Positions 3,021-17,900 of a DNA stretch of 64,000 bases are shown piece by piece (the first letter of the stretch is position 1; each line of letters starts with the position of its first letter). The stretch comes from Dermatophagoides farinae. Taxonomy: Eukaryota; Arthropoda; Arachnida; Sarcoptiformes; Pyroglyphidae. The notes beneath the pieces are model-generated. The model was not told the origin of the DNA. It saw nothing but the letters and a program-made list of their open reading frames with translations, and searched no databases. Where the stretch lies: assembly GCF_024713945.1 (NCBI RefSeq), contig NC_134682.1, forward strand, positions 1,922,001-1,986,000, given 5' to 3'. The position numbers and the translations under genes are program-made.

Positions 3021-3278
3021 GTTGCAAAAGTTTGGAATTTTTTATCGAAAAAAAATATATAGAAATTCCTGAATTTTCACGTGAGCAAACATGTGAAATA
3101 TTAATAAACACCAGCACCATCTAGAATCAAAAGATTAATTTATTCCATTCAATATATTGAGCTCATCATCATTCTCCATTATTCTGTTTACAATTTTAGT
3201 GTTTATTCTGTATAATACTGAAATAATACTTAAATTTGTGGTGAAAATTTTCAATTTATCAATCAATCCGACATAATA
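3021..3278. promoter_or_regulatory. Bidirectional promoter, RPF1/TAF1
   Basis: The 258 bp between the two start codons must hold both promoters. No TATA box in a credible position is visible for either gene. A perfect E-box CACGTG lies at 3078-3083, of the type MYC/MAX proteins use at ribosome biogenesis genes. AGCACCATCTAGA at 3113-3125 reads TCTAGATGGTGCT on the minus strand and resembles the CTCF core. Function of either site is inference. Confidence 0.6.
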
Positions 3279-6200
3279 ATGATGTCGTCGGACGAAGAAG
3301 ATAATGATGATTTGCCGAGATCATCTTCATCGGCAAGCCGAATAGCAAGCGCCATTTTGTTCGGTAACATTGATGAAAATGGTGAATTAACCGGCGATAT
3401 ATTTGATGATGAATGTCGCCGTCATCTTGATTCATTGCAACCACATCTATCATCGATTATTCCCTTTGAAGAATTGATTGAAGATGATGATGATGATGAT
3501 TCATCTCAGCAACGACAATCCGATAATGACAAACGTTTATCGGACGATGATGATGGTAAAGGTATGAATGTATGATGATTATTTCTAAACTTATAAATTG
3601 ATTTATCCAATCTATACAAAGGATCTGATTCTGATTTAGATATCAAATCTGAAATTGCAGTCGATTATTCTGATATTAATGAATTCGTTGCCGATGAGGA
3701 ACAATCATTTGTTGAAGATTTGCTAAACAACATCATTCAAACGAATAAAAATGATAATTGCGACGATGATGATTACGATGATGATAAAAATCAGAATTTA
3801 GGTTCACAATCTGATGGCAAACAGAAAGATAACCAGATAGAAATTCAAAAAGATAAAGATGGATTTGTTATACCACAACAACCGATTCGAAAGACTGATT
3901 CATTAACCGTTAAATCGAACAACATTCAAATCGAAGAACAACAACAGGATCATATAGATGGTGATAATGAAAAACTGTGTGAAGGTAGTGAACATCAATC
4001 TCAAACATGCAAAAAACGTCTAGATACACCATTGGCTGCAATGTTACCATCAAAATATGCCGATCTTGATGTTACCGAATTATTTCCAGAATTTCGTCAT
4101 AATCAAGTTTTACGATTTTCGCGCCTATTTGGTCCAGGTAAATCATCGTCATTGCCACAGATTTGGAAATCAGTCCGTAATAAACGACGAAATCGTCATA
4201 TATTTGAAAATAAATTATTCATTGTACAACAAACAAAGACACCACCAATTGATAAGAACAATAGAGATATTTGGGAATTTGATGCCTGTCCAGTGGAAGA
4301 CATACCAGCCGATATGATTGAAATGGATGATGAAATTCGTTTGATGCAAAATGATTTTATCGATGATGAACACGGTAAAAATAGTGCCGGTGAGAATGAA
4401 GATCGTAATAAGATAGCTGAATGGCGTTATGGACCGGCAAGATTCTGGTATGATCGTATGAAAGTACCAGAAAATGGCGATGGCTTTGACTATGGATTTA
4501 AACTGAAAAATCAAGATTCATTCATTGACGGTGACGATGATAACGGTGATGAGAACGATGATAACAACAAAGATGATCATTGCTCATCTGCTACAAAGTC
4601 GAAACAATCACCATTAGATAATCAGCCATTATCAAACGATGATGATGATGCTTTTCATTTAGTCACACAATTAAATTGGGAAAACGAAGTAATCTGGAAT
4701 GCTGATGAAGTAAGGCAGAAAATTCTGGCCAAATTAAATGACAAACATCTGGCATCTGGATGGTTACCATCAGGACATAACCGTACGGCTACAGCATTCA
4801 CACAGCAAATGCGTGGCTCAGCAGCACCAAAATCGATACCAATACCATCGTCCTCATCATCATTTAAGAAAAATGATGGTAAAAAAAATACTGCTGATAG
4901 TTCTAAAAATGATGATCACGATGATCAATGGTTCTCGATTTTTCCGATTGAAAATGACGATCTTGTTTATGGACTTTGGGAAGATTCAGTCATCTGGGAT
5001 AGTGAAGCTATGGATCGTATACCCGAACCACCGCTTCTTGTATTGGATCGAAATGATGAAAATATTATATTGGAAGTGCCTAACGATGAAGATCCAAATG
5101 AAAGTAATAAAAATCAACCGACAAAAGAAAAGAAGGAAGGTATACGTAAATCTCGATTATTATTGGGTAAGGCTGGCGTTATAGCCGAACCAGAAATTCT
5201 ACAGCCGCCATCACCACCTTCGGGTGAGAAAGATCCATATAACATATCAAATGATGAATATTATGCACAAAAAACAACCACCGATGCGACACTCAAATCC
5301 AATGTTGGCAGTAATCTAATACAGCATTCGATTCCAGCATTGGAATTGCGGCAACCATTTTTCCCAACATTCCTAAGCTATCAACGATTACGAGCATTTC
5401 ATCGTCCTTCATTGAAACGATATTCACATGGAGCTATTGCCGATACATTACCGCATGGCGTTCAACCATTGGTCAAACATATCAAACGTAAAGCTAAACA
5501 ACGTGAACAAGAACGACAAGCATCTGGCGGCGGTGAAATGTTTTTCATGCGCACACCTGAAGATCTTACCGGAAAAGATGGTGATCTTATATTGACTGAA
5601 TATTCTGAAGAACATCCACCATTAATCATGCAAGTTGGTATGGCCACAAAAATTAAAAATTATTATCGAAGGGTATGTTTTATTGTCATTCTTGTAAATT
5701 ATTTAAATTAATTAATTGTATTGTTACAGAAACTGGGTAAAGATAGTGGAGCACCGAATTATAAATATGGTGAAACTGTCTATTGTCATACATCACCATT
5801 TTTGGGCAATCTGCAGCATGGTCAATCTCAACAAGCACTTGAAAATAATCTTTTTCGTGTACCGATATACGAACATCAATTACCGGAAACTGATTTTCTT
5901 GTCATTCGCACCAGAGATAATTATCATATTCGAGAAGTGGAAACTATCTATACTGTTGGGCAGGAATTACCACTGTACGAAGTTCCGGGGCCAAATTCAA
6001 AGAAAGCGAATAATTTTATGCGTGATTTTCTACAAGTTTTCATTTTTCGCTTATTCTGGAAAAACAATGATAATCCACGACGAATCAAAATGGAAGATAT
6101 CAAAAAAGCTTTCCCATTGCATTCAGAAAGTTCAATTCGTAAACGATTAAAACAATGTGCTGATTTTAAACGAACTGGAATGGATTCAAATTGGTGGGTG

Positions 6201-9200
6201 CTGAAATCAGATTTTCGTTTACCATCCGAAGATGAAATTCGTGCTATGGTATCACCCGAAGCTTGTTGTGCATATTACTCGATGTTGGCAGCCGAACAAC
6301 GTCTCAAAGATGCCGGTTATGGTGAGAAATCTATGTTTGCACCGGATGATGCTGAAGATGAAGATCTACAAGTCAAAATGGATGATGAAGTGAAAGCGGC
6401 TCCATGGAATACAAGCCGAGCATTTGTATCAGCCATGAAAGGCAAATGTTTATTACAATTGACTGGTGTTGCTGATCCAACTGGTTGTGGTGAAGGATTT
6501 TCCTATGTTCGCATACCAAATAAACCACAACAGTCAAAAGAAGAACAACAGAAAGAACCGTTGCCTAAAAAAACAGTAACCGGTACGGATGCCGATCTTC
6601 GTAGACTACCGTTGAATGCAGCAAAGCAATTGTTGCGAAAATTCGGTGTACCTGATGATGAGATTAAAAAATTGAGTCGTTGGGAAGTAATTGATGTGGT
6701 TCGTACGCTATCGACCAAACAGGTGAAACAACAAACCGGCGATAGTAATGGTGGACAGGGTGAAGATGATGCTATGAGTAAATTTGCCCGTGGTAATCGA
6801 TTTTCAATTGCTGAACATCAAGAACGATATAAAGAAGAATGTCAACGTATATTTGATCTACAAAACAGAGTACTTGCCTCAACCGAAGATCTTTCCACCG
6901 ATGAAGATGAAAGCGAAGAAGAGGAAGATTCGGAAATTGAAGAATTGGGCAAAAATATTGAATCAATGTTGGCTAATAAGAAAACGATCAATCAAATATC
7001 ACGTGACAGAGAGGAAGAGGAACGAAGAGAATTGAAAAAATTAATGTTACGTGAAGAATCATCGAATCAAGGAATGAGTGGTGATTCGAAAAAACGTAAA
7101 AACGATTCGAATGCCGATGATAATGATAATAATGATGGAAATGCTCTGATGTCTTCATCATCATCAACTGGTCGAATCCTGAAAATATATCGAACGTTTA
7201 CGGATTCGGAAGGAAAAGAATATGTTCGTATTGAAACAGTACGAAAACCGGCCGTCATCGATACCTATGTTCGTATTCGTACGACTAAAGATGATGCATT
7301 CATCAAACAATTTGCATCGGCAATGGATGAACAACAGAAAGAGGAGAAACGTAAAGAAAAACGCCGAATACAGGAACAGTTACGACGTATGAAACGTAAT
7401 CAGGAACGTGAAAAATTAGCCAATTCTTTACGCAATAGTTTTGGTATTACGACAACGCTCAATTCAACGATGAATATTGGTTCGATTAGTGGTGCTATGC
7501 CATCACAACCACCACTCATTGCAACATCTACACCTGCTAGTTTGGCTTCACCATTTTTGTTTAATCCCAATCTGAATCCTATGGGTGTTGGTGGTACACC
7601 ACTTGGTACGCCCACCACACCTATCGATTTAATATCTTCATCATCATCATCATCGAAAGTGACTAAAAGATCTAGCCGTAAAGATAAAGAGACGAATTTG
7701 AAATTAAAATGTGGTGCATGTGGTAGTGTTGGCCATATGCGTACAAATCGTGCATGTCCATTGTATGGAAATCCGGAAGCTGGTTCGATAACATTTGGCA
7801 ATGGAAATGACTTATCTGCCGACGATAGTATTGGTGGTGGTGGCGGTGTAATTGGTACTAATCTTAACCAATCATCAACCATTTTGAATGAAGAGAATCT
7901 GGTCAAATTGGATGAAACGAAATTGGTTCTTTCGAAATCCGTTATGAAACAATTAGATTTAGAGCAACAAAAACAACAACAATTAGAACTAGAACGACAA
8001 CAAAAGAAAGCGGCTTCAATCAAATTAAAGATACCGAAAGATGTACTGAAGAAACGGAAGAAACGTTCAGCTACACAGGATAATAATGATCGATTGGATT
8101 ATCTACAGAAACCTGATTATAAATCAGCTAATCGTCGTCGTACCGATCCATTAGTCATTTTATCTGATATATTTGAAGAAATTTGGAATGAAATGCGTTC
8201 CATGCCCGATTCTGAACCATTTCATCAACCGGTCAATGTAAAAACAGTGCCCGATTATTATAATATAATCACTCGACCAATGGATCTACAATCGATAAGA
8301 CAGAATATTCGTAATAAACGTTATAAAAATCGTGAAGAATTCTTGAATGATGTAAACATGATTGTGAAAAATTCAGAGATTTATAATGGGCCAAATCATG
8401 TTCTCAGTACAATCGCTCGACGATTAATGGAATTGTGTGTGTTGAAAATTCAACAAAAAGAAGAAGAACTTATCAAATTGGAAAAAGTCATCAATCCATT
8501 ATTGGATGAAGATCAAACAGCCTTTTCCTACATACTCAAAACGATTGTGGCACAAAAATTGAAAACCATACCGGATACATGGTCATTCCATAAACCGGTG
8601 AATAAAAAAACGGTTAAAAATTATTATGATATTATTAAAAATCCAATGGATTTGGATACTCTCGAACAGAATGCCACGAATCATGTATACAAAACACGTG
8701 AAACATTTCTCCAACATGTTGGCCTTATCTATGAGAATAGTGTTCGATTTAATGGTCCAGACAGTGAATTTACACGTAAAGCAGCACAAATTGTTGAAGT
8801 GGCAAACATCGAATTAAAACAATATGAATCACAGTTAATCGTATTGGAAAAAGCTATTGGTGATCATAATATTACCGGATTAGATGATGATATGATTGAT
8901 GATGAATCGAATATGGCCGAAGAATATGATGATGATCAACAACAACAATCAATGCAACCACCACCAGCTAAACAGGCTAGATTATTTCAAGATGTTGATA
9001 TGGATGAAAATCAACAAGATACAACCGATATTGTTGCTGATGATTTACAGATTGAAAGTGGTGATGAAAGTGATGATGATGATGATGATGATCATGATGA
9101 TCCTGAATCATTATCCGGTTGGCATGATGCTCATCATCATCAACAACAACAACAACATTCATTTATATCCGAACAACAATCATCATCATATCATCAAAAT

Positions 9201-9518
9201 GTTGATGATTTTGATGAAAATTATGATCCATCTGAATTTCTATTGAAAAGTTCATTTGCCCAACAATCATCATTGTATCATCATCAACAACAACAACAAA
9301 AGCAATCGTTTGAATCAAATCGACAAATGGCCATCGATGATGATAATATTGATGATGATGATGAAAATGATAATGATATGGACCATAATAATCAACCAGT
9401 TGTCGATGTATCACAGGATCTAGATGTATCCGATTCGGATGATGATGATGATGATGATGGCGATGTTGCTGAACCAAATGCTGATGATGGTGAAGAAGAT
9501 AATGATTTATGGTTCTAA
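3279..9518 (+). CDS. TAF1: TAF1, largest TFIID subunit (full-length copy)
   Basis: Three exons, 3279-3561, 3622-5672 and 5730-9518, give 2040 residues, between human (about 1870) and Drosophila (about 2130) TAF1. It scaffolds TFIID in the nucleus and reads promoter chromatin. In order: an N-terminal TAND-like segment ([13 protein letters not shown] near residue 28) that in the family binds TBP; the large DUF3591 core, roughly 300-1040; a charged linker; a CCHC zinc knuckle starting at C1439 ([10 protein letters not shown]); bromodomain 1 about 1583-1682 and bromodomain 2 about 1708-1802, both with a PxDYYNII/NYYDII-type loop and a conserved Asn (NGP); and a very acidic His/Gln-rich tail ending DNDLWF. 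The start follows the acidic TAF1-like N-terminus [16 protein letters not shown] lies at 9575-9580. A shortened tandem copy follows directly. Confidence 0.96.
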
Positions 9519-9881
9519 TAATTATTTGCATTTTTTTTTTGTTTATGTATATGAAATTTTTTAATAATCATCAAAATAAATAAAATTCGTAATAATGTAA
9601 AACGATTCTCATCATTGATTCGTCGAATGTTAAAGTTGAAATAGTTATCTGACCAATAGGCCATTTTTCACGATTACAAGTTTGATCTTTGACCAGTGCC
9701 CAGTAACCACAATATAGCGAAAATTGTTCACAGATTGCAAAGTTATGCAAAGTTACTTCCAAGCTACTAATTTGGTTCATTTTTCATGAAACATTAGCAT
9801 CATCAGTTAAGCTCCTCCTACAACTTGACTGTTACTGTACAATCTTTTCCCCATTTTGATGGTGGATTTTTTTTCTGTGTA
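9519..9881. other. Spacer between the TAF1 copies
   Basis: The first 120 bp or so (to about 9641) are 3' flank repeated behind copy 2 at 14204-14341, with the polyadenylation signal. The next 250 bp (about 9642-9893) match nothing else in the window. They must hold the promoter and 5' end of copy 2 unless its first exon lies elsewhere. On the minus strand about 9640-9780 reads as 45 protein-like residues (CEQFSLYCGYWALVKDQTC and neighbours) with no recognisable family, possibly an exon carried in at the breakpoint. Confidence 0.6.
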
Positions 9882-12800
9882 ATGGACATTTTAGATGGTG
9901 ATAATGACAAACTGTGTGAAGGGAATAAAAAACAACCTCATACATGCAAAAAACGGCTAGTTACACCATTGGCTGCAATGTTACCATCAAAATATGCCGA
10001 TCTTGATGTTACGAAATTATTTCCAGAATTTCGTCATAATCAAGTTTTACGATTTTCACGCTTATTTGGTCCAGATAAATCATCGTCATTGCCACAGATT
10101 TGGAAATCAGTCCGTAATAGTATATTTGAAAATAAATTATTCATTGTACAACAAACAAAGATACCACCAATTGATAAGAACAATAGAGATATTTGGCAAT
10201 TTGATGCCTGTCCAGTGGAATACATACCAGCCGATATGATTGAAATGGATGATGAAATTCGTTTGATGCAAAATGATTTTATCGATGATGAACACGGTAA
10301 AAATGGTGCCGGAGAGAATGAAGATCGTAATAAGATAGCTGAATGGCGTTATGGACCGGCAAGATTCTGGTATGATCGTATGAAAGTACCAGAAAATGGT
10401 GATGGCTTTGATTATGGATTTAAGCTGAAAAATCAAGATTCATTCATCGACGGTGACGATGATAACAAAAAAGATGATCATTGCTCATCTGCTACAAAAT
10501 CGAAACAATCACCATTAGATAATCAGCCGTTATCAAACGATGATGATGATGCTTTTCATTTAGTCACACAATTCCATTGGGAAAAAGAAGTAATCTGGAA
10601 TGCTGATGAAGTAAGGCAGAAAATTCTGGCCAAATTAAATGACAAACATCTGGCATCTGGATGGTTACCATCAGGACATAACCGTACGGCTACAGCATTC
10701 ACACAGCAAATGCGTGGCTCAGCAGCACCAAAATCGATTCCAATACCATCGTCCTCATCATCATCGTCATCATTTAAGAAAAATGATGATCACGATGATC
10801 AATGGTTCTCGATTTTTCCGATTGAAAATGACGATCTTGTTTATGGACTTTGGGAAGATTCAGTCATCTGGGATAGTGAAGCTATGGATCGTATACCCGA
10901 ACCACCGCTTCTTGTATTGGATCGAAATGATGAAAATATTATATTGGAAGTGCCTAACGATGAAGATCCAAATGAAAGTAATAAAAATCAACCGACAAAA
11001 GAAAAGAAGGAAGGTATACGTAAATCACGATTGTTATTGGGTAAGACTGGTGTTATAGCCGAACCAGAAATTTTACAGCCGCCATCACCACCTTCTGGTG
11101 AGAAAGATCCATATAACATATCGAATGATGAATATTATGCACAAAAAACAACCACCGATGTTGGCAATAATCTAATACAGCATTCGATTCCAGCATTGGA
11201 ATTGCGGCAACCATTTTTCCCAACATTCCTAAGCTATCAACGATTACGAACATTTCATCGTCCTTCATTGAAACGATATTCACATGGAGCTATTGCTGAT
11301 ACATTACCGCATGGCGTTCAACCATTGGTCAAACATATCAAACGTAAAGCTAAACAACGTGAACAAGAACGACAAGCATCTGGCGGCGGTGAAATGTTTT
11401 TCATGCGCACACCTGAAGATCTTACCGGAAAAGATGGTGATCTTATATTGACTGAATATTCTGAAGAACATCCACCATTAATTATGCAAGTTGGTATGGC
11501 TACAAAAATTAAAAATTATTATCGAAGGGTATGTTTTATTGTCATTCTTGTAGATTATTTAAATTATTAATTAATTGTATTTTAATTGCATTGGAAATGT
11601 TACAGAAACTGGGCAAAGATAGTGGAGCACCGAATTATAAATATGGTGAAACTGTCTATTGTCATACATCACCATTTTTGGGCAATCTGCAGCATGGTCA
11701 ATCTCAACAAGCACTTGAAAATAATCTTTTTCGTGTACCGATATACGAACATCAATTACCGGAAACTGATTTTCTTGTCATTCGCACCAGAGATAATTAT
11801 CATATTCGAGAAGTGGAAACTATCTATACTGTTGGGCAGGAATTACCACTGTACGAAGTTCCGGGGCCAAATTCAAAGAAAGCGAATAATTTTATGCGTG
11901 ATTTTCTACAAGTTTTCATTTTTCGATTATTCTGGAAAAACAATGATAATCCACGACGAATCAAAATGGAAGATATCAAAAAAGCTTTCCCATTGCATTC
12001 AGAAAGTTCAATTCGTAAACGATTAAAACAATGTGCTGATTTTAAACGAACTGGAATGGATTCAAATTGGTGGGTGCTGAAATCAGATTTTCGTTTACCA
12101 TCCGAAGATGAAATTCGTGCTATGGTATCACCCGAAGCTTGTTGTGCATATTACTCGATGTTGGCAGCCGAACAACGTCTCAAAGATGCCGGTTATGGTG
12201 AGAAATCTATGTTTGCACCGGATGATGCTGAAGATGAAGATCTACAAGTCAAAATGGATGATGAAGTGAAAGCGGCTCCATGGAATACAAGCCGAGCATT
12301 TGTATCAGCCATGAAAGGCAAATGTTTATTACAATTGACTGGTGTTGCTGATCCAACTGGTTGTGGTGAAGGATTTTCCTATGTTCGCATACCAAATAAA
12401 CCACAACAATCAAAAGAAGAGCAGCAGAAAGAACCGTTGCCTAAAAAAACAGTAACCGGTACGGATGCCGATCTTCGTAGACTACCGTTGAATGCAGCAA
12501 AACAATTATTACGAAAATTCGGTGTACCCGATGATGAGATTAAAAAATTGAGTCGTTGGGAAGTAATTGATGTGGTTCGTACGCTATCGACCAAACAGGT
12601 GAAACAGCAAACAGGCGATAGTAATGGTGGACAGGGTGAAGATGATGCTATGAGTAAATTTGCACGTGGTAATCGATTCTCAATTGCTGAACATCAAGAA
12701 CGATATAAAGAAGAATGTCAACGTATATTTGATCTACAAAACAGAGTACTTGCCTCAACCGAAGATCTTTCCACCGATGAAGATGAAAGCGAAGAAGAGG

Positions 12801-14203
12801 AAGATTCGGAAATTGAAGAATTGGGCAAAAATATTGAATCAATGTTGGCTAATAAGAAAACGATCAATCAAATATCACGTGACAGAGAGGAAGAGGAACG
12901 AAGAGAATTGAAAAAATTAATGTTACGTGAAGAATCATCGAATCAAGGAATGAGCGTTGATTCGAAAAAACGTAAAAACGATTCGAATGCCGATGATAAT
13001 GATAATAATGATGAAAATGCTCTGATGTTTTCATCATCATCAACTGGTCGAATCCTGAAAATATATCGAACGTTTACGGATTCGGAAGGAAAAGAATATG
13101 TTCGTATTGAAACGGTACGTAAACCGGCCGTCATCGATACCTATGTACATATTCGTACGACTAAAGATGATGCATTCATCAAACAAAACAGTGGTAGTAA
13201 TTTTAACCAATCATCAACCATATTGAATGAAGAAAATCTAGTTAAATTGGATGAAACGAAATTGGTTCTTTCTAAATCTGTCATGAAACAATTAGATTTA
13301 GATCAACAAAAACGACAACAATTGGAACAAGAACGACAAAAGAAAAGAAAACAAAAGAAAGCGGCATCAATCAAATTAAAGATTCCGAAAGATGTACGGA
13401 AGAAACGTTCAGCTACACAGGATAATAATGATCGATTGGATTATCTACAGAAACCTGATTATAAATCAGCTAATCGTCGTCGTACCGATCCGTTAGTCAT
13501 TTTATCTGATATATTTGAAGAAATTTGCAATAAAATGCGTTCCATGCCCGATTCCGAACCATTTCATCAACCGGTAAATGTAAAAACAGTGCCCGACTAT
13601 TATAATATAATCACTCGACCAATGGATCTACAATCGATACGACAGAATATTCATAATAAACGTTATAAAAATCGTGAAGAATTCTTAAATAATGTAAACA
13701 TGATTGTGAAAAATTCCGAGATTTATAATGGACCAAATCATGTTCTCAGTACAATTGCTCGACGATTAATGGAATTGTGTGTATTGAAAATTCAACAAAA
13801 AGAAGAAGAACTTATCAAATTGGAAAAAGCTATTGGTGATAATAATATTACCGTATTAGATGATGATATGATTGATGATGAATTGAATATGGCCGAAGAA
13901 TATGATGATGATCAACAACAACAATCAATGCAACCACCACCAGCTAAACAGGCTAGATTATTTCAAGATGTAGATATGGATGAAAATCATCAAGATAGAA
14001 CCGATATCGTTGCTGATGATTTACAGATTGAAAGTGGTGATGAAAGTGATGATGATGAAAATGATAATGATATGGACCATAATAATCAACCAGTTGTCGA
14101 TGTATCACAAGTTCTAGATGTATCCGATTCGGATGATGATGATGGCGATGTTGCTGAACCAAATGCTAATGATGGTGAAGAAGATAATGATTTATGGTTC
14201 TAA
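9882..14203 (+). CDS. TAF1-like tandem paralogue, shortened, open frame
   Basis: Two exons, 9882-11528 and 11606-14203, encode 1414 residues that align throughout with the TAF1 gene just upstream. The intron sits at the same place (77 bp against 57). Similarity begins at residue 207 of TAF1, so the TAND region is absent. Residues about 1306-1488, including the zinc knuckle, are replaced by about five residues. The segment with bromodomain 2 is missing exactly, and about 100 residues of the acidic tail are gone. All changes keep frame, and exon 2 starts with 450 residues identical to TAF1 779-1228. The ATG at 9882 is the first in frame; a splice acceptor ending at 9893 (TTTTAG) would be an alternative with an upstream first exon. 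AATAAA is at 14273-14278. Likely a functional paralogue (inference); a collapsed or duplicated assembly haplotype is the main alternative. Confidence 0.85.
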
Positions 14204-14978
14204 TAATTATTTGCATTTTTTTTTGTTTATTTATATGAAATTTTAATAATAAAAAATTTTAATAATCATCAAAATAAATAAAATTCATAAACGATTCTCA
14301 TTCATTTATTGATTTGTCGAATGTTAAAGTTGAAATAGTTTGAATGATGATGATTAGATTTCGTAAATTTTACAAGTGAGAACAGAACATTCGATTATTT
14401 TTGTGTAAAAATTTTTTTTTTCAATAAATGATACAAACATGGTGATTGGTACCATGTGATCCAAAAAAAAAAAAAAAATGAGTTCAATCAATCAAACAAT
14501 AGTGTAATGACGTAACATGACGTAACGTAATCAATATATATGCGTGTGTTTGTTTGTTTGTGTTTATATATTTACGACGGAGATTCTTTCTATTTTTTTT
14601 CAATTTATTAATGGCTATAATACCGCCACCAAATGGCTGCTGATGTATACAAATATACAGCATGCCCATGGCCACACCATCACCGCCACAACCACCAACA
14701 CTCACACGTGTATATTTAGTGCTAAATAAAACTGGAATTTTTATTCGTTTCTGAAATTTTCTTTTCTTTTCTGTTTTGATCATATATGAATTTTTTTTTT
14801 TTTGTAAACAAACCTAGAGATAGAGAAAGTATTCATTGATCCAAATGAAATCAAAATTAACTGATTGATTGAATTTCATCAACAAAAAACTTTGAAAATT
14901 TTCTTTCATCCTGATTCGACGATCAATAAATCATCAAGTTTTTCGTTGTTTGTTTGTTTTCATTGGACAAAAAAAAAC
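14204..14978. other. TAF1-like 3' flank and XPOT upstream region
   Basis: After the duplicated 3' flank (to about 14341) there is no coding sequence. An imperfect palindrome (ACATGGT, 7-bp gap, ACCATGT) lies at 14437-14457. Two TGACGTAA sites follow at 14507 and 14517. The rest is AT-rich with poly-A/T runs. Confidence 0.6.
14507..14524. promoter_or_regulatory. Two tandem ATF/CREB-like sites
   Basis: TGACGTAA occurs at 14507-14514 and again at 14517-14524, spaced exactly 10 bp, one helical turn. This matches the bZIP (CREB/ATF) half-site family. It lies about 455 bp upstream of the exportin-T start codon. Binding is inferred from the motif only. Confidence 0.4.
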
Positions 14979-17900
14979 ATGAATTTAGAAATTTTCAACA
15001 AATTTTCCCGTATACAATCGGAAAATGCTTTACAGCAGAAAGAAGTTCTTGATTATTTTCAATCATTAAAATGTAATCCAATTGGTTGGAAAATATGTGC
15101 TGAAACATTATTGACTGATTCGATAAACGATGAAATGGGAATATTTTTCTGTTTTCAAGTAATCGAAGATTATATAAAATCACGTTATAATACCGATAGT
15201 GATGATGAACGAATCATACTCAAACATTTTATAATTACAATGTTTGAAAAAAATTTACTCATTACAAATTATTTACAGAATAAATATGCTCATTTGGTCA
15301 ACACATTATTCTTGATTGATTTTCCTCAACAAAAATGGCCAACATTTTTCAAAGATTATCTTGGCCGATGTGAAAGTCGTATAAAATGTGAATTATTTCT
15401 TCGTGTTTTGATTCAAATTAATCTTGATATAGCTGATCGTGAAATTCCAAAAACGACCAAAGTAAGCTAAGAAAAATTGATGAATAATTGATTTTCATAA
15501 ATGTATTTTGTTTGTATTCATAGGAAATGCAACGAAATACGTTGATCAAAGATATGATGCGTGAATCATGTCTAATGGATTTGGCTCAATTCTGGTTCAA
15601 TATTATTGTAATAATAGATATAAAATTATTGTTTTTGTTGACATTAATTGTTGGTTTTTTTTATTTCTAAAATAATATGCAGAATACATATCGTGACAAT
15701 TGTCCACAGGTTGTTTGTCTTTGTCTCGACGTAATTGGTGCCTATATATCATGGATTGATATTAATCTCATAACAAACGATTCCATTATGCCCGTTTTAT
15801 TCATGTTATTTTCAAATGTACAATATCGTTGTTCAGTTGTCGAATGTTTTGGTTGTATATTGAAAAAAGGAATGGATCCATTGGCTAAAACACAGTTGAT
15901 TGAAGAATTTCTGAATTTTGAACTAATTAAAACAACATTGGTCGAAATATTTACCATTCATAATGATATTAATGTTGGTTTTGTCGAAAAATTTGCATCA
16001 CTAATCAATACAATTGGTATTGAATTGATTGAAGCACAGAAAAAACTTCGTTCACGTATGACATCGGTCGATCCTCATGATCCTAATCATCGTACATCGG
16101 CAATAATGTCTGAAGCAATTGAATCAAAATTTCCATTACTTTGTCAATTTTTATCACATAAAATTCTTACTGTATGCATTCGAATACATAGTTTCACAAG
16201 AGATTATATTCAATGGCTAAAATCGAATGTTAAGGATTCAACTGAAACGGCTATTATGACTGCAATTGTTGAAGATCGAACACAAACATTAATATCAATC
16301 ATTGTTGATCGTAATAAAATGTTAGCCGCTTCATATAAACCGGAAGATGAATTTTTTACCGAATTTCGTAAATCAAGTAAAGTTTTATTCGATAATCTAA
16401 TCCTATTGAAACCGGTGGTAACGCTCAATTTTATTTGTGATAAACTTGTACTACCTACATTCATTAATTGGAAATCTGGTTCGCTAACATTTGCCGAAAT
16501 TGAATGTGCACTGTATTATTTTCATGTGATTGGTGAAAATCTAAATATTGTGGATGATATTAAATGTTTGGAAAATCTTTTACAAGCATTGGTTACTTCA
16601 TCGATTTCAATGTTTGAACATCCGATCACACAATCACTATATTTTGATCTTATTGTTCGTTATGAAAAATTTATCAATTCAAATCTAAATCAATTATTAT
16701 CGCAGATTATTGTTTCATTTTTGGATAACCGTGGTCTTCGTAATACCAACATTAAAATTCGAAGTAAAGTTTGTAAACTTTTCAATAAATTCACTAAATC
16801 ATACATAAGATCGAAACATAATTCACAAGAAAAACAGCAACATTTTATTGATGATATTCTGAAACGAATTCAGGATTTCCTCGAATTGGACATTGTTTTC
16901 GATTCACCGGAAGATCTTATTGAACAAGATTTAGAACATCTAGTTCATTCTAGCTATTTAATGCGTCGAGAACAGATTAAATTCGCATATCCACTATCAG
17001 CTTCTGATCATCTACAAATCTATGAAACGGTCGCCTTTTTAATCATATCCAATCATCATGATGCATTGCATAAACGAGAATCACTTAAAGAATTATTTCA
17101 GAAAATATGGAAAAAATATCAAGAATATCGGGATGAATCACAATCGATTGGATTATATTTAAATCAGAATGGTTTTACTGATTCGATGGCAGCACAAAAA
17201 ACATCGCTTCTCGAGAAACGTTCAATCATTCATTATCATATGGCTCATTTAATTGATATAATATCGGCAACATCAAAATCATTTTCAACAGTAAATACGG
17301 TGAAAACGATCGGTGTACAGCAGCTATTTCTTTATTCATTTGAATTGTTTACTAAATCCGTTGGACAAAATCTGGCCACTGTTGATCCGGAAGCACAACA
17401 TATTCTACAATCATCTATTCGACTATTTCTACACAGGTTAATTGTATGTTTGGGTGAAGATGAAATGATACCAATGTTACCAGATGCTATACAAACATTG
17501 TTTCTTTCATCATCGGAGATAAGTGCAAAATCCGTACAAGAATTGATACCATTATTTAATCAGATTATGCCGAAATATAAACATTCATGGCTATTTCAAC
17601 GTGACATTCTACCATTTTTAGATCGAATTTTTTCACCGTTAATCAATCTATATTTTCGATTGATTATTGAAGCTAATATTGATAGTGAAAAGATTTCATT
17701 ACAGAAATCATATTATTCATATTTACATTTGATCACTGTTCATGGTTTAATGCCAAATTTTTTCGATATTGGTATGTTGCTTTATATTGATTAATTGATT
17801 TATTCATTAATTAATTGTTTAATTGCCATTTTTAATTATAAACAGAATCACAGTTGATTGAAAAAATAATCACTTCTCTTATTGAAGGTATCGTACATTC

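Follow-up and report, generated by a model that had tools for sequence, protein, structure and literature searches.

A tandem duplicate of TAF1 in Dermatophagoides farinae, probably under reduction to its scaffold core

TAF1 is the essential scaffold of TFIID, the universal gene-switching machine. The window analyzed here, a stretch of 64,000 nucleotides of DNA from D. farinae, the American house dust mite (C6:1922001-1986000 of the 22 contigs and 62.4 Mb searched), carries on its forward strand a complete TAF1 gene, designated gene A (3279-9518), which consists of three exons and encodes 2040 amino acids followed by a single terminal stop. The spliced open frame starts in exon 1 (3279-3561), which contains the TAND at about 3351-3458 (PF09247, E=4e-11), and continues through exon 2 (3622-5672), intron 2 (5673-5729, 57 bp) and exon 3 (5730-9518). 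The domain scan of exon 3 revealed the rest of DUF3591, a zinc knuckle (PF15288) at about 7701-7772 and two bromodomain stretches (bromodomains 1 and 2), which are followed by an acidic tail; the DUF3591 piece in exon 2, an exon outside this single-exon scan, is known from a whole-genome DUF3591 search. When the 5' region of gene A (3080-3960) was used as a genome query, it matched only itself. Upstream of gene A, an IRE1-like frame with kinase and ribonuclease 2-5A domains is located at 24-1709.

A second TAF1 gene, copy B, lies on the same strand at 9882-14203, its ATG separated from the gene A stop by 363 bases. It has two exons and encodes 1414 amino acids with a single terminal stop, and it is identical to the NCBI D. 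farinae protein P0001, whose start is the same ATG at 9882. Exon 1 (9882-11528) is homologous to gene A from about A codon 203, the 77-bp intron (11529-11605) occupies the position of A intron 2 and differs from it by gaps of 3 and 17 bases, and exon 2 (11606-14203) encodes the rest of DUF3591, one bromodomain (about 13517-13762) and an acidic tail. A and B are much more alike than chance would allow (95% over 3.3 kb with E = 0 in a DNA search of the genome), and the retained intron distinguishes copy B from a processed pseudogene or retrocopy, which would be intronless. The two spliced open frames and the intron at the A-intron-2 site thus agree with a preliminary description of this DNA that had announced an intron-bearing tandem TAF1 copy of 1414 codons behind the complete gene. 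The domains of copy B above cut-offs are DUF3591, whose TAF7-interaction core is present (PF12157, E=1.4e-156, positions 1-443 of 444), and one bromodomain; B residues 24-1141 align to the human TAF1 chains of TFIID with 1530 bits.

A protein search returned 1308 proteins at E<=1e-20, the best 120 of which were listed as clusters at 90% identity. The mites among these 120 were three D. farinae rows (P0001-P0003), D. pteronyssinus P0005 and Euroglyphus maynei P0004; the P0003 row stands for 8 sequences, and the record of gene A itself was seen as no separate row. P0002 (1806 aa, marked low quality) is A-like, with 8 differences in 1805 residues, and its model starts at an internal Met downstream of the TAND and includes the zinc knuckle and two bromodomains. 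P0003, annotated as D. farinae "TFIID subunit 1-like isoform X2" (1880 aa), retains the TAND (PF09247, E=1.6e-9), the zinc knuckle (E=2.3e-7), one bromodomain and most of the tail. We infer that P0002 and P0003 come from another assembly.

Neither the TAND (PF09247), the TBP-binding part of TAF1, nor the CCHC zinc knuckle (PF15288) was detected in copy B at E<=0.1, and the double bromodomain of animal TAF1 is reduced to one stretch in B and P0003, in contrast to two in A and D. pteronyssinus P0005. By eye, copy B is the only one of the best 120 of the 1308 proteins without a zinc knuckle, whereas 10 of the 120, including copy B, have no PF09247 call, and therefore the absence of TAND from a predicted protein is on its own weak evidence; in copy B this absence is visible in the DNA itself. 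Relative to A, copy B is missing 202 codons from its start, 179 in the zinc-knuckle region, 122 that span bromodomain 2 and 94 of the acidic tail; six further small losses of 3 to 9 codons and 4 extra codons at one place are added to these. One of the small gaps, of 7 codons, is more likely a gain in A, to judge from the two nearest mites, which also lack those codons. All 10 internal coding gaps between B and A comprise whole codons. Hence, the domain scans and gaps confirm the claims that the copy lacks TAND, zinc knuckle and second bromodomain and that it has stayed open through in-frame losses; the loss of the TBP-binding region, given there as 206 residues, measures 202 codons.

The joints of the three internal losses, all on the forward strand, were found close to where they had been placed (near 13187, 13829 and 14055). 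The 179-codon loss, which removed A 7317-7853 with the zinc knuckle, is joined at 13185-13200 (about 13193) and is not found in P0003. The loss of bromodomain 2 (A 8478-8843) is joined at 13815-13832 (13820-13829), between the two copies of TTGGAAAAAG, a sequence that occurs once behind each bromodomain, and is common to P0003. The loss of 94 tail codons (A 9072-9353) is joined at 14045-14058 (about 14048) between GAT runs and is not found in P0003. Bromodomain 2 would have been lost first, probably by deletion between the 10-base repeats, and the TAND, the zinc knuckle and part of the tail would have followed later, in this B lineage only.

The 3' flank of A (9519-9646) is copied behind B at 14204-14340, as detected by BLASTN and alignment, with 4 substitutions in 118 aligned bases and gaps of 1, 14, 9 and 5; the duplicated unit therefore extended beyond the gene end. 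The intron and flank pairs together differ at 5 of 175 non-coding bases, which is less than at fourfold sites (34/504), albeit in a small sample. Between this flank and copy B lie 77 bases of unique filler (9647-9723), for which a query of 9640-9730 matched only itself in the genome at E<=1, and a forward-strand stretch of 158 bases (9724-9881) that is 81% identical to C1:1219377-1219533 and ends exactly at the copy B ATG. This stretch constitutes the new upstream sequence of copy B, and the search for the origin of the B 5' end yielded that one relative in the genome, which is non-coding (L017 378-534). Promoter capture from a gene was set aside as the source, because no gene was seen by eye to read out of the C1 stretch; about 0.9 kb from it there are frames that by eye resemble a broken transposase. 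An Rfam scan of the junction (9400-10000) gave 4 matches, all below the gathering score. Downstream of copy B, an exportin-T frame is located at 15677-17794.

The short distance of 363 bases between the A stop and the B ATG raised the question of whether B is a downstream exon block of A, with A exon 1 splicing to the TTTTAG ending at 9894 to give an A/B hybrid with TAND. A T-rich sequence ending in AG indeed precedes 9895, and A exon 1 ends in phase 1, the phase needed by B from 9895. Nevertheless, such a phase match arises by chance in one of three cases and any AG would serve, the NCBI model starts at ATG 9882, and P0003 does not resemble such a splice product but reads through the B start region, and this reading appears improbable. 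The unbroken reading of P0003 through that region also led us to reject P0003 itself as a splice chimera of an A start and a B body.

The relationship of P0003 to copy B dates the duplication. Both share the deletions of bromodomain 2 and of two small stretches, one of them RRNRH, together with K247, D267, S282, I301 and H1293 (A numbering), which are derived by the outgroup, and E1248 and F1253, whose polarity the outgroup leaves undecided. At the 44 aligned A/B residue differences P0003 agrees with B in 15, with A in 28 and has a third residue in one; by outgroup polarity, the derived residue belongs to the B side in 31 and to the A side in 8, with 5 undecided, and at four of the 8 A-side changes B and P0003 have their residue in common, one other being the position of the third residue. 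In the protein tree the D. farinae sequences form a group apart from the other mites with 100% support; within it, A pairs with P0002 at 98-100% and B with P0003 at 90-94%. On these shared changes P0003 is assigned to the B lineage, and from the grouping in the tree the duplication is dated after the divergence from D. pteronyssinus and E. maynei but before the D. farinae sources separated, unless gene conversion misleads. In P0004 of E. maynei, residues 1787-2326 match the exportin-T frame downstream of copy B at 87%; we read this protein as TAF1 and exportin-T fused by annotation, which would reflect the single-copy order with no second TAF1 between them.

As P0003 keeps TAND and zinc knuckle, the loss of bromodomain 2 is the only large loss that is shared, and the others occur in this B alone. 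In the species, the paralogue is therefore not characterized by the absence of TAND and zinc knuckle, and the preliminary description is not supported as stated on this point. Besides the losses of the zinc knuckle and of tail codons, the changes found in B but not in P0003 are a six-codon indel at A 5286, a gain of 4 and a loss of 3 codons, and three extra serines. The first exon of P0003 differs from that of A by 5 residues and one deletion, all within the first 65 residues, and A residues 66-210 are unchanged in P0003, an identity that would fit either conversion or a shared start.

Near-identical multi-kilobase repeats can be misassembled, and P0002 and P0003 combine A-like and B-like bodies with the N-terminus differently, as might be expected if there were one TAF1 locus whose second allele had been set in tandem by the assembly or by haplotype. 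However, A and B differ over 1410 codons with dS 0.082 and dN 0.018, and a dS of 0.08 with many private indels contrasts with the 8 differences in 1805 residues between A and P0002. Furthermore, the junction contains unique filler and the C1-like stretch, and A-like and B-like bodies are both present in other D. farinae records. We therefore consider an artefact very unlikely. In the whole-genome search DUF3591 gave five matches, four of them the exon pieces of A and B and the fifth a divergent gene on C18, and 3900-9700, used as a DNA query for which 40 of 46 candidates were scored, recovered A, B as four pieces, and another 40 short matches, almost all of which fall in the acidic-tail part of the query.

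To what extent copy B is under selection was analyzed by comparing its codons with those of A. The core, 542 codons of the TAF7/TAF2-docking region (11253-12955 on the forward strand, across the intron; B residues 458-999, A residues 687-1228, A 5397-7079), has 17 silent and 0 replacement codons with respect to A, and the remaining 868 aligned codons have 46 silent and 51 replacement codons, all counted pairwise between A and B. This difference is significant by the Fisher test (P=2e-5), also when ten doubtfully aligned outside codons, half of them at the extreme start and half in a run of serines, are left out (45:43, P=6e-5), although the core P values are flattered by boundaries that were set after the replacement positions had been seen. 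The replacement:silent ratio expected in the core under neutrality is 2.5-2.9 at kappa 2-4, and with a neutral B and purely silent change in A, the probability that all 17 changes in the core are silent would be 2e-7 to 1e-6; under the same model, the 51 replacements among 97 changes outside the core fit a neutral B (P 0.2-0.6). In agreement with this, P0003 is unchanged in the core with respect to both B and A (0/542 each), and its differences from B in the rest of the protein number 45 in 859 residues (11/450 and 34/409; four start codons excluded). Between A and P0002, 1 of 542 residues differs in the core and 7 of 1263 outside. Constraint on copy B is thus confined to the central core, that is, most of DUF3591 and the stretch behind it, and the changes of B outside the core would fit near-neutral drift.

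The indels point in the same direction, since 10 of 10 internal ones in coding sequence are in frame compared with 2 of 6 in non-coding sequence (intron and flank gaps of 3, 17, 1, 14, 9 and 5). Three of the ten lie in GAT runs, which favor whole codons, and the chance of the remaining 7/7 is 5e-4. Copy B thus has neither the broken frame nor the overall lack of constraint of a pseudogene, even though its changes outside the core are near neutral.

Less probably, in our view, B may be a duplicate in decay, a nascent pseudogene whose frame has been kept so far with occasional gene conversion from A. Such decay would account for the near-neutral 51 replacement and 46 silent changes outside the core, for the loss of conserved modules one after another together with the loss or replacement of the 5' end, and for the 48 differences in 1405 residues between B and P0003, far above the 8 in 1805 between A and P0002. 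Moreover, the longest run without silent change spans 149 degenerate codons (P=0.024), which may reflect conversion of some of the core by A. On the other hand, the 17:0 ratio of the core includes silent changes, which show that time has elapsed without conversion; the P0003 core is likewise unchanged; and the coding indels are all in frame, whereas 4 of 6 non-coding ones are out of frame.

Taken together, the duplication, the losses, the intact frame and the core-confined constraint of copy B suggest, at about even confidence, that B is a young tandem TAF1 duplicate of the D. farinae lineage and encodes a scaffold-keeping protein whose production continues or ceased only recently. Judged from sequence, B is probably a functional, D. 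farinae-specific TAF1 under reduction to its scaffold core. Its upstream region, which consists of the filler and the C1-like stretch, counts against this explanation. In a search for short B-like fragments, a 454-aa fragment of B gave 64 matches, none of which was named D. farinae, and their identity was at most 62% except in four that span 10-14% of the query.

The predicted activity of the B protein can be derived from human TAF1, in which, according to PMC10442232, the TAND binds TBP, Lys249 contacts TAF11-TAF13, three motifs bind two TAF6 copies, and DUF3591/RAPiD binds TAF7 and, loosely, TAF2. The B protein would accordingly dock TAF7 and TAF2 through its core and probably TAF6 through upstream motifs, and it would lack the TAND-based hold on TBP. 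It would meet TAF11-TAF13 through an altered motif, since B and P0003 carry TKLFPEF and FGPDK in place of the TELFPEF and FGPGK of human TAF1, E. maynei and D. pteronyssinus, human Lys249 being the K of FGPGK as counted by hand in an alignment to chain 6mzl_A. The human zinc knuckle is a DNA-binding module on which full promoter occupancy by TFIID depends (PMC5854669); without it the B protein would lack this promoter contact, and acetyl-lysine would be read by a single bromodomain. Human TAF1 is also reported to appear limiting for TFIID assembly, and TAND removal to abolish the co-translational recruitment of TBP (PMC10442232). Because TAF1 is reported as such a limiting assembly driver, B may form a variant TFIID without the TBP lid or compete with A by drawing building blocks from it, the two roles, alternative TFIID or competitor, that had been proposed for it.

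A more speculative reading, which we consider rather doubtful, is that within one species the TAF1 modules are becoming divided among a pair of tandem genes, differently in each lineage. The module sets would then be the complete one of A, the core and one bromodomain of B, the TAND, zinc knuckle and single bromodomain of P0003, and the zinc knuckle and two bromodomains of the P0002 model, whose start lies beyond the TAND. If true, this would be a natural, segregating dissection of the TBP lid, the promoter contact and the histone reader of TFIID, in which selection would maintain just the TAF7/TAF2-docking core of each copy. What the single TAF1 modules are needed for has mostly been probed with engineered deletions and mutations. 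A natural copy that is young, has its selective constraint limited to the core and has a conspecific relative at an earlier stage would reveal the part of TAF1 that merits retention alongside a complete copy, and copy B bears on the question of whether a TFIID variant lacking the TBP lid can work in animals.

TBP and TAF7 were also located. The mite TBP lies on C1 (9065113-9065692), and C2 carries two further loci (C2:3216391-3216960 and C2:6117955-6118629), one TBP-like with both repeats present and the other a weaker TBP-family locus; that a TBP paralogue exists beside a TAND-less TAF1 may be a coincidence. No sign of TAF7 duplicated in step with TAF1 was seen, the genome search giving 2 matches, on C2 and on C18, the latter taken as belonging to another organism. 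The small contigs C18 and C20 carry divergent TAF1, TAF7 and TBP sequences (C18:286500-296000, or L018, C18:75010-75318 and C20:65950-66471), the TAF1 on C18 having one bromodomain in a single frame of 1551 codons, and these genes probably derive from another eukaryote (a symbiont, parasite or food organism) in the mite assembly.

Concerning known systems, nothing on TAF1 in Dermatophagoides was found in the open-licence PubMed Central literature, and in the part of it surveyed no tandem TAF1 paralogue in an animal is reported by title. Copy B accompanies a complete TAF1 as a second, TAND-less gene, and in this it resembles, by functional comparison and not by descent, Arabidopsis TAF1b (HAF2) beside TAF1 (HAF1). 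In TAF1b the N-terminal 90 residues, which contain the TBP domain, are missing and with them most of the TAND; it has its own specialized role, and plants mutated in it are viable although TAF1 is essential (PMC4949998). Given this pair, the statement that TAF1 is normally single-copy is not a rule, and a TAND-less TAF1 paralogue has a precedent. In contrast to the Arabidopsis genes, which by their locus codes are on two chromosomes, the mite B is young and in tandem, it also lacks the zinc knuckle and one bromodomain, and its B-lineage relative keeps the TAND. Human TAF1L is likewise a lineage-specific second TAF1, proposed as a TAF1 stand-in in spermatocytes, but it is intronless, probably a retrocopy, on another chromosome and about 95% like TAF1 over its length (PMC11423858), whereas B has an intron, a tandem place and lost modules. 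The Drosophila testis TAFs Can, Nht, Mia, Sa and Rye and the vertebrate TAF4b and TAF7L are also duplicated TFIID subunits in variant complexes (PMC4200853); none of those named is a TAF1. A further close likeness is P0003, which shares with B the bromodomain-2 deletion, two small deletions and substitutions but, unlike B, has kept TAND, zinc knuckle and most of the tail. Therefore, a TAND-poor TAF1 paralogue is known from Arabidopsis, and what is new in D. farinae is a tandem, intron-bearing one that is variable within the species and cut towards the core.
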